A DNA stretch of 39,220 bases. Source: Anaeromusa acidaminophila DSM 3853 (GTDB taxonomy: Bacteria > Bacillota > Negativicutes > Anaeromusales > Anaeromusaceae). The notes under the pieces were generated by a model that worked only from the letters and a program-made list of their open reading frames with translations, had not been told where the DNA came from and searched no databases. The DNA is taken from assembly GCF_000374545.1 (NCBI RefSeq), contig NZ_KB894589.1, positions 1 through 39,220 of the forward strand, read 5' to 3'. How positions within the stretch are numbered: position 1 is the stretch's first letter; every line of letters begins with the position of its first letter. The position numbers and the translations under genes were made by a program. This document shows positions 1,772 to 3,835 of the stretch, piece after piece.

Positions 1772-2471
1772 TATGGAACGGAGATTGTTGCCGGTAAAAT
1801 TAGACAGCTACCAACCTTTGCGGGAAGTGGTGTGTGAAACATTACGGGAAGCGATTATTAGCGGTGTATTGCGCCCGGGAGAACGTTTAATGGAAATTCA
1901 GTTGGCCGAGGAGCTGGGTGTAAGCCGGACTCCGGTTCGCGAAGCAATTCGTAAGCTGGAGCTGGAAGGTTTTGTGATTATGATTCCGCGCCGAGGCACC
2001 TATGTGGCGGATTTGTCCATTAAAGACATCAATGAAGTATTCGAAGTGCGTTCCGCGTTGGATTCGCTGGCCAATGGCTTGGCGGCGGAACGCATTACAG
2101 AAGAAGAACTAGAGCAGATGGAACGCTTGTTGGTGCAAATCAGCGCTTGCGTAGATAATGGCAATATGGAAAAAATCGTGGAACTAGACGGTCAGTTTCA
2201 TGATATTTTGTACCGAGCCAGCCGCAATGACCGCCTAGTTGGCATTATCAACAACTTGCGAGAGCAGCTAACACGTTTCCGGACTATCTCCATGGCCTAT
2301 CCGGGACGTTTGAAAAAAACAATCGAAGAACATACGCAGTTGGTGGAAGCCATTGCGGCGCGCGATGTCGATTTGGCTCAGCAATTGGCAGTGGAGCATA
2401 TGGCTAACTCAGAGCAGACGCTGCTACAGGATATCAATGAGCGTCGGCAGCAGCAAAACAAAGATCGCTAA
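1761..2471 (+). CDS. GntR-family transcriptional regulator, FadR/FCD subfamily
   Basis: A 236-residue DNA-binding regulator. Residues about 15-80 form the GntR winged helix (REAIISGVLRPGERL, then the helix-turn-helix LAEELGVSRTPVREAIRKLE and the wing RRGTYVA). Residues about 85-225 form a helical FCD ligand-binding domain with the metal-ligand-like residues typical of that fold (D near FHDIL, H in EEHTQLVEAI, H in VEHMANS). FCD regulators usually sense small organic acids; the ligand here is unknown. The start at 1761 overlaps ispE by 11 bases and has AGGAAAG before it; ATG 1773 is an alternative. It is the last gene before a strong terminator, so it belongs to the cheW-ispE operon. Confidence 0.9.
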   Translation: MVSDMERRLLPVKLDSYQPLREVVCETLREAIISGVLRPGERLMEIQLAEELGVSRTPVREAIRKLELEGFVIMIPRRGTYVADLSIKDINEVFEVRSALDSLANGLAAERITEEELEQMERLLVQISACVDNGNMEKIVELDGQFHDILYRASRNDRLVGIINNLREQLTRFRTISMAYPGRLKKTIEEHTQLVEAIAARDVDLAQQLAVEHMANSEQTLLQDINERRQQQNKDR

Positions 2472-2480
2472 GTAGACTTG

Positions 2481-2512
2481 AAAAGCATGGCATTTTGATG
2501 CCATGCTTTTTT
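2481..2512 (+). terminator. Intrinsic terminator after the GntR gene
   Basis: AAAAGCATGGCA (2481-2492) pairs with TGCCATGCTTTT (2499-2510) around a 6-base loop, and the T-run extends to 2512. The A-run on the left makes it potentially bidirectional. Confidence 0.85.
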
Positions 2513-2519
2513 GATACAC

Positions 2520-2940
2520 CATTATAAGTTTTGAGAGGCTAAGACAGGAGGAATAGAGCGGGTTTGTGAGAACGACAAATCAAATTTCGCGATTTTCGCG
2601 GTTGGATAATAAAATCGAGAAACGTTGCTAACGAATCACGAAATACACGAAAGACGCGAAAGGGGGGCAAGATTATGTGGTATGAACGGAGGCATAACTG
2701 TATTTGAGACAAGATTTTCGCGCGCCTCGCCAAAACAGGAGTCGACAGCAGTTCCGCGAACTCACTGGCGCTTAGACATACGGAACTTTTCTCCGCCGCC
2801 TCCTGCTTTTGCGTCCCGCGGACCGTCTTGCTTCCCAAAAGTCTCAAATACAATCACGGCCGCCGTGGCCTCATTCATTCCCACATGTTACTCCTTTGGC
2901 TTTTCTCTGTTGTTCTGTGTGTTCCCCCTTCTAAGAAAAA
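2520..2940. repeat. Non-coding gap filled by a large nested imperfect palindrome
   Basis: No credible gene lies in the gap of about 550 bases between the GntR gene and purR. It holds nested complementary segments: 2674-2680 with 2881-2887, 2682-2693 with 2868-2878, 2699-2710 with 2841-2852 (12 of 12 bases, TGTATTTGAGAC), 2736-2741 with 2800-2805 and 2750-2756 with 2781-2787. They all fold in register around a loop near 2757-2780. An extra small palindrome (CACGGCCGCCGTG, 2855-2867) sits in the right arm only. On the left flank 2585-2591 pairs with 2655-2661, enclosing reiterated CACGAAA-like units. The layout suggests a dispersed repeat or structured RNA, not a gene. Confidence 0.6.
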
Positions 2941-2954
2941 TTTTCCCAAGACGA

Positions 2955-2982
2955 TGAAAAAGCGTAAGATGAATGGTATAAT
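2955..2982 (+). promoter_or_regulatory. Probable purR promoter
   Basis: A perfect TATAAT at 2977-2982 lies 44 bases before the purR start. The -35 region (TGAAAA at 2955-2960, 16-base spacer) is weak. Just downstream, the minus strand reads TTCCCGAATATT around 2988-2999, which resembles the CCGAAC core of a PurBox but has a mismatch and no clear partner. Autoregulation by PurR is therefore only a guess. Confidence 0.45.
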
Positions 2983-3025
2983 TGAACTTAATATTCGGGA
3001 ATAAATGCGAATGGGAGGAACCGTA

Positions 3026-3835
3026 GTGGAAAAAGTACGGAGGATTGAGAGGGTGGTGGCATTAACCAAGCTTCTCGTGGATATGCCAAGCCGTCTTTTC
3101 CCGTTAAGCTATTTTAGTGAACGCTTTGGCACCGCCAAATCAACGCTGAGCGAGGATATGGTGACGATCAAGCAGGCGTTGCAGCAGTTTGGTTTAGGAA
3201 CGCTGGAAACCGTTGCTGGCGCAGCCGGAGGCGTGCGCTTCTTGCCTCGTCGCGAAGGCGAGCGAGAACAGGCTATTTTGCAGGAACTGGCTTTGCGTTT
3301 GAAAGAACCGGAACGCATTATTGCAGGCGGTTTTTTGTATATGACTGATTTGCTGTTTCAACCGGCTTTGATGGCGCAGATCGGCGAAGTTTTTATGACT
3401 AAGCTGGCTCATTTGCGGCCAGATTATATTATGACGGTAGAGACCAAGGGAATTCCGCTGGCTTTTATGACGGCTCGAGCATTTGATTTGCCCTTGGTCA
3501 TTGTGCGTCAAGGAAGCAAAGTAACTGAAGGGCCTTCGGTGAGCATTAACTATGTCAGTGGCTCTACACGACGCATTCAGACTATGTCGCTGCCGAAGCG
3601 CGCTTTGCCTGTAGGAGCGCGCGTTCTTTTAATTGATGATTTTATGAAAGCTGGCGGTACGGCTAAAGGCATGGCTGATTTGGCGATGGAAGTAGGAGCG
3701 GAGGTAGTTGGCACTGGCGTGCTGATTGCCACAGCCGAGCCGCAGCGCAAGCTTGTGGAAGGCTATACAAGCTTACTTATGCTTCATGAAGTAGACGAGT
3801 GGAGCAAGAAAATAGATATTCGTCCTATTGAATGA
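3026..3835 (+). CDS. purR: Purine operon repressor PurR
   Basis: A 269-residue PurR of the Bacillus type, a repressor of purine biosynthesis genes that uses a phosphoribosyltransferase fold as a PRPP sensor. The N-terminal winged helix is seen as RRIERVVALTKLLVDMPSRL, with SYFSERFGTAKSTLSEDM as the recognition part (about 5-50). The C-terminal domain carries the PRPP-binding loop VLLIDDFMKAGGTAKG. GTG 3026 is taken as the start because GGGAGG at 3013-3018 is correctly spaced; the frame is also open from 3005. Normal length for the family is about 270-285. It stands directly upstream of glmU and prs, the latter making the PRPP that relieves its repression. Confidence 0.95.
   Translation: MEKVRRIERVVALTKLLVDMPSRLFPLSYFSERFGTAKSTLSEDMVTIKQALQQFGLGTLETVAGAAGGVRFLPRREGEREQAILQELALRLKEPERIIAGGFLYMTDLLFQPALMAQIGEVFMTKLAHLRPDYIMTVETKGIPLAFMTARAFDLPLVIVRQGSKVTEGPSVSINYVSGSTRRIQTMSLPKRALPVGARVLLIDDFMKAGGTAKGMADLAMEVGAEVVGTGVLIATAEPQRKLVEGYTSLLMLHEVDEWSKKIDIRPIE

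Follow-up and report, generated by a model that had tools for sequence, protein, structure and literature searches.

Several classes of bacterial repeats share features with the locus described here. REPs are 21-65 nt long, carry a 5' GT[AG]G foot and go with a RAYT gene (PMC6006769). ERIC-type and other catalogued bacterial stem-loop repeat families are intergenic, span 50-300 bp and are possibly transcribed (PMC2267715, PMC1590033). The window analyzed is a stretch of 39,220 nucleotides from Anaeromusa acidaminophila DSM 3853 (contig NZ_KB894589.1), in which the gap between a GntR/FCD regulator gene and a PuR_N purine repressor gene (purR) is occupied by palindromic DNA. This feature is best read as a mosaic of non-coding, hairpin-forming interspersed repeats lying in the space from the terminator of one gene to the promoter of the following one. 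M3, the core of the mosaic, is most likely non-autonomous selfish DNA, a reading held with little better than even confidence.

The upstream gene, gntR-FCD, ends in an intrinsic terminator (AAAAGCATGGCATTTTGATGCCATGCTTTTTT, positions 2481-2512, plus strand; arms 2481-2510 are self-complementary in a blastn self match), which is also kept in the orthologues of the congeners G001 and G002, and is potentially bidirectional, given the A-run on its other side. The mosaic begins directly behind it, and stretches from 2514 to 2920, comprising M1, M2, M3 and a pyrimidine-rich tail. M1 is a left flank repeat (2514-2584, plus strand; consensus TATACCAGAATTTATAAGTTTTGAGAGGCTGAGACAGGAGGAATAGAGCGG..., also written TATACCAGAATTTATAAG...), and residues 2522-2584 are 98% identical to the M1 consensus derived from other post-terminator sites. 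M2 (2585-2664, plus strand; TTTCGCGATTTTCGCGGTT...AACGAATCACGAAATACACGAAAGACGCGAAAG) is an 80-bp imperfect hairpin repeat, of which more than 15 further copies, 77-94% identical and many of them without M3, reside in the A. acidaminophila genome. The CACGAAA-like units assigned to the left flank of a large palindrome in a sequence-only reading of this DNA are present, but make up the right arm of this separate hairpin.

M3, the large nested palindrome and core of the finding, corresponds to a profile match at 2686-2870 (plus strand), and is represented by 56 copies from four genomes in alignment A1. The outer stem is an exact 12-bp pair (2699-2710/2841-2852), the middle stem lies within segments matching at 75% (2721-2744/2797-2820), and the apical stem is exact (2750-2756/2781-2787), in agreement with the nested pairs first noticed. 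In contrast, the outermost pair proposed (2674-2680/2881-2887) matches at 6 of 7 positions only and is not conserved across the family alignment, and is thus probably peculiar to this copy. The apical loop (2757-2780, plus strand) is nearly invariant in A1; the motif found here, AACTCACTGGCGCTTAGACA (2759-2778), differs by two changes from the family consensus AACTCGCTGGCGCTCAGACA. A small hairpin, GTCC-CGC-GGAC (2813-2823, plus strand), is hosted in the right-hand internal loop, and is helix 5 of the consensus structure, with 98.7% of cells paired. The extra small palindrome reported in one arm is CACGGCCGCCGTG (2855-2867, strand not assigned), read directly from the sequence in the right arm; many copies in A1 have its GGCCGCC part, but the complete palindrome is not common among them. 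The pyrimidine-rich right tail (2868-2920, plus strand; ...ACTCCTTTGGCTTTTCTCTGTTGTTCTGTGTG) is M4/M5-like, residues 2891-2920 being 93% identical to the tail repeat, and tails related to it form the right arm of further palindromes elsewhere. The palindrome seen by the sequence-only reading at 2585-2900 is therefore real and larger than described, but the unit is a composite of separate repeats rather than a single palindrome. Coding is unlikely, as stated in that reading, because the region has no ORFs other than an opposite-strand pair starting at TTG, and one-base indels separate family members. At the start of the window, positions 1-166, read by eye, seem to encode the C terminus of an IS3-type transposase (...YYNFDRLQRKLGVMTPYEYHEHYSAA).

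A search of the A. acidaminophila genome with 2585-2900 returned at least 40 matches (all copy counts are lower bounds), splitting into two kinds, copies of 2585-2664 (M2) and copies of about 2665-2890 (M3), the one often occurring without the other. Many more copies reside in three congeners (G001-G003), while 36 other genomes of the class Negativicutes hold no copy at the DNA level. Where a single copy without compensatory change would have spoken against a repeat, the result was the reverse: parts of the element occur at least 40 times in A. acidaminophila, and 12 pairs are compensated; of the three options raised from the sequence, a mobile or selfish structured repeat is supported by these two results. 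M1 and M4/M5 repeats also surround M2 and M3, M4/M5 arms pairing as palindromes elsewhere, and many copies are preceded by an intrinsic terminator, with the mosaic starting a few bases after the T-run. Plasmid records gave no M3 match, and a plasmid origin of M3 was rejected on this ground. A 23-base M2 piece was noticed in an Acidobacteria MAG (L070:1475-1541), within a near-perfect intergenic CACGAAA-type hairpin.

The content of orthologous sites turns over. PurR is 99% identical across the four genomes, and both the terminator and the purR promoter are conserved; the DNA in between differs, being M1-M2-M3 in A. acidaminophila, M3 in G003 (the contig begins inside M3), a truncated copy from a different M3 subtype in G002, and M4 palindromes only, their arms pairing with each other and M3 missing, in G001. 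At three further orthologous sites (L058, L034, L044) M3 is missing from A. acidaminophila and present in congeners, and at a fourth (L050) it is only partial in A. acidaminophila. Simple ORF finding was used to call genes around the loci. Other modules occupy the orthologous sites, a clean empty site with a target-site duplication being seen at none of them, and neither a TSD nor a TIR boundary was found for M3; insertion is thus deduced from presence and absence, not from junctions. As a search for an M3 transposase was equally negative, mobility is a property that we infer.

M3 elements are oriented with respect to replication. In G002, a complete genome in a single contig, all 29 M3 matches (three of them weak, 73%) fit two switch points, lying on the minus strand up to 633 kb, on the plus strand from 654 kb to 1.97 Mb, and on the minus strand again from 2.59 Mb, and the local GC skew changes sign in step. 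Over all loci, 60/63 M3 copies and 20/21 copies of M2 only have flanks with positive GC skew, measured on the strand of the element. The upstream gene is co-oriented with the element in about 80% of cases, so that a location behind leading-strand genes explains part of the bias; we calculate that this rate would yield 29 of 29 in about 0.2% of cases. The orientation observed makes the M3 plus strand the lagging-strand template, which is the strand usually used in single-stranded DNA transposition.

Folding, suggested earlier as a check, set the core apart: residues 2690-2862 do better than all 200 shuffles as plus-strand RNA (z -3.2), as DNA (z -3.2) and as minus-strand RNA (z -5.6), the wider stretch 2600-2960 reaching z -1.6 only. 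RNAalifold on A1 yielded 35 consensus pairs, 12 of which show double-sided compensatory change. On the named consensus structure 96.6% of cells pair, a figure lowered to 36-53% by sliding the partner by 1-3 columns; both sides are changed in 83 cells vs. 22 in shuffles, none of 500 shuffles scoring as high, although these counts are not independent events, as the copies are related. M3 subfamilies differ in loops and arms, truncated copies exist, and stem bases shift together between subtypes (TTTGAGAC/GTCTCAAA vs. TTTGCGAC/GTCGCAAA, and CAGTTCCG/CGGAAC vs. CAGTTTC/GAAACTG). Such covariation denotes a maintained hairpin and is not proof of an RNA role, since template switching is known to generate hairpins and preserve them (PMC8794818, PMC7202029) and can give double changes in quasipalindromes. 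Compensatory changes alone therefore fail to separate a DNA from an RNA reading. One orthologous pair from another Negativicutes family has 13 arm pairs with both sides changed, 10 broken by a change on a single side, and no G-U intermediates; few double changes were seen in a second element of that family and in the genus Anaeromusa. Judged from these alignments, the 13 two-sided changes fit a putative correction of arms at the DNA level. Compensatory changes in long hairpins may accordingly arise in DNA, which matters for covariation-based RNA discovery.

The M3 loop motif, AACTCGCTN(0-3)GCTCARACA, reaches well beyond the genus. The pattern AACTCGCTN{0,2}GCTCARACA, allowing 0-2 bases between the halves, was found in 16 of 398 genomes of the phylum Bacillota, belonging to 13 of the 267 genera sampled, multicopy, with up to 37 sites per genome; the reversed pattern, used as control, had 0 matches in the 398 genomes. 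The search undercounts the commonest M3 subtype, which has three bases between the halves. Nearly all sites inspected are long palindromes having the motif as apical loop, with arms unrelated between genera; the loop is 19-20 nt long, and non-paired bulges are also conserved across unrelated genera. GCGNAGC or GCGNNAGC, which forms an unusually stable DNA mini-hairpin, occurs in the loop complement and offers a lead. Internal loops of L189-L196, L149 and L150, all from one Negativicutes family, feature CGCTN(1-2)CGCT (6 found vs. 0.2 expected), echoing the apex; a recurrent CGCTNCGCT in internal loops was discarded as a feature of the whole class, being clear in that family only.

Exact matches to the motif lie in 87 stretches of IMG/VR contigs. 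Of the 80 inspected, roughly 23 form strong hairpins, among them a site between the small terminase and head-completion genes of P2-family prophages. In filamentous-phage contigs bearing Zot (L216:2800-2818; related L230, L236, L242-L244, L249, L251, L254, L258, L269) the motif marks an edge between variable left and conserved right sequences, possibly an attachment junction. A text search of open-access papers with the loop and its complement returned only unrelated matches, apparently primers, and no description of this repeat was found in that literature. Hairpins sharing this apex appear to be selfish repeats of a widespread type not described before. M3 may represent a genus-level branch of such a cross-phylum class, endowed with variable self-complementary arms and with an apical loop serving, in chromosomes and prophages alike, as recognition signal for a widely distributed nucleic-acid enzyme; we put this forward tentatively, as a proposal somewhat more apt to fail than to hold. 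If true, the keeping of the apex across families of the phylum, a P2-family prophage and viral contigs, in spite of unrelated arms, would mean that a conserved factor reads the apex, and the loop would be a concrete, searchable signature for finding it.

A structured RNA is a serious rival of the selfish DNA reading, though one to which we assign a rather low probability. The transcript would most likely come from the minus strand (loop UGUYUGAGCGN(1-2)AGCGAGUU) and end at the bidirectional terminator, or else M3 would be a 3'-UTR element reached by read-through; as part of the same doubtful proposal, the copy number would reflect a duplicated RNA gene family. Covariation exceeding both shuffles and slid controls agrees with it, as does the higher stability of the minus strand in 107 of 117 hairpins and in all 10 groups (104 of 117 after replacement of the loop by A10). 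Outside the genus Anaeromusa, A-C mismatches, which are G-U on the minus strand, outnumber plus-strand G-U, and internal loops are conserved within families. An RNA thus accounts for the strand bias and for bulge conservation. Yet within Anaeromusa plus-strand G-U exceed A-C (65 to 31), arms of the orthologous pair mentioned above changed without G-U intermediates, many copies are truncated or replaced at orthologous sites, no promoter was recognised by eye beside the element, and no Rfam family matches the element in the window, 20 related loci or the other loci searched. The stability bias suggests that one strand acts as RNA or single-stranded DNA, yet, given the orientation, it is the plus strand that serves as lagging-strand template. 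The same double changes, outnumbering the broken single ones, would suit a by-product of DNA mechanics, according to which quasipalindromes are kept and extended by template switching, spread by recombination between repeats, and tolerated only between terminators and promoters, with neither dedicated machinery nor function; modules do swap at the same sites. We regard this as improbable; it leaves the high copy number unexplained, as well as a conserved 19-20-nt loop and conserved bulges across unrelated genera.

The least probable of the explanations weighed, and one to which we give very little credit, makes M3 a REP/BIME or PATE, dependent as a satellite on a Y1 (HUH) transposase of the IS200/IS605 or RAYT type. 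The element is intergenic, palindromic, abundant and oriented by replication, and the A. acidaminophila genome has IS605-type TnpA genes. However, loci L059-L066, surrounding Y1 genes, contain none of the modules, M3 is several times longer than a REP, and three genomes (G395, G103, G281) carry the motif with no match to PF01797, a general Y1 model rather than a RAYT-specific one, by which Y1 genes are not enriched either (13 of 16 carriers vs. 25 of 34 non-carriers). By the tests run, M3 is thus not a REP/RAYT or IS200-type satellite, nor are Y1 transposases the loop-reading factor in general; the suggestion of a REP drawn from the sequence does not hold in the strict sense, on account of both length and Y1-free carriers. 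One IS605-like pair, in A. acidaminophila contig 13 (L059:251-1875), consists of an IscB-like ORF (419 aa) that contains HNH, with a Y1 transposase (133 aa) behind it. Other candidates were dismissed. CACGAAA-type repeats suggested an association with GxxExxY/PDDEXK_3 genes, of which the A. acidaminophila genome has none; a retron was discarded because the motif is not found near either RT gene; and attC-like RYYYAAC/GTTRRRY boxes, judged by eye, do not fit.

Selfish DNA remains the reading preferred for M3, as it explains the copy number and the orientation, the subfamilies with their truncated copies, and the turnover, and the conserved apex suggests recognition by a factor. In the mechanism proposed, the M3 hairpin would extrude as single-stranded DNA at the replication fork, a candidate enzyme would recognise the apical loop, and then copy or move the hairpin; recombination between dispersed copies would swap modules at the same sites.

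Set against known systems, M3 shares with group IIC introns the position just behind intrinsic terminators, a niche which may reflect only tolerance. M3 differs in having neither a group II match in Rfam nor an encoded RT: group II catalytic RNA domains were absent from 2450-3050 in a search that detected a real intron in L288, and derivation from a group IIC intron was rejected, the insertion niche alone being in common. That intron (L288:756-2672, A. acidaminophila contig 4; Rfam group-II-D1D4-3 and D1D4-1) includes an RT ORF and sits just behind the enolase terminator; M4-type palindrome arms come after its 3' end. Like PATEs and MITEs, M3 is non-autonomous, hairpin-bearing and oriented in step with replication, but its sequence is conserved at the apex and not at the ends, which have nothing in common with those of IS605-type elements of the A. 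acidaminophila genome. Like REP/BIME with RAYT, it is intergenic, palindromic, present in many copies, often on the 3' side of genes, and placed in a single-stranded DNA and replication context; the M3 unit, however, is about 185 bp, and several carriers of its motif lack a Y1 transposase. ERIC-type families, likewise intergenic stem-loop repeats, are to our knowledge clade-specific by sequence, whereas the M3 class has a loop, and not the arms, common to different genera and prophages. High-copy intergenic palindromes are already known; here, arms unrelated between genera stand under a shared apex.
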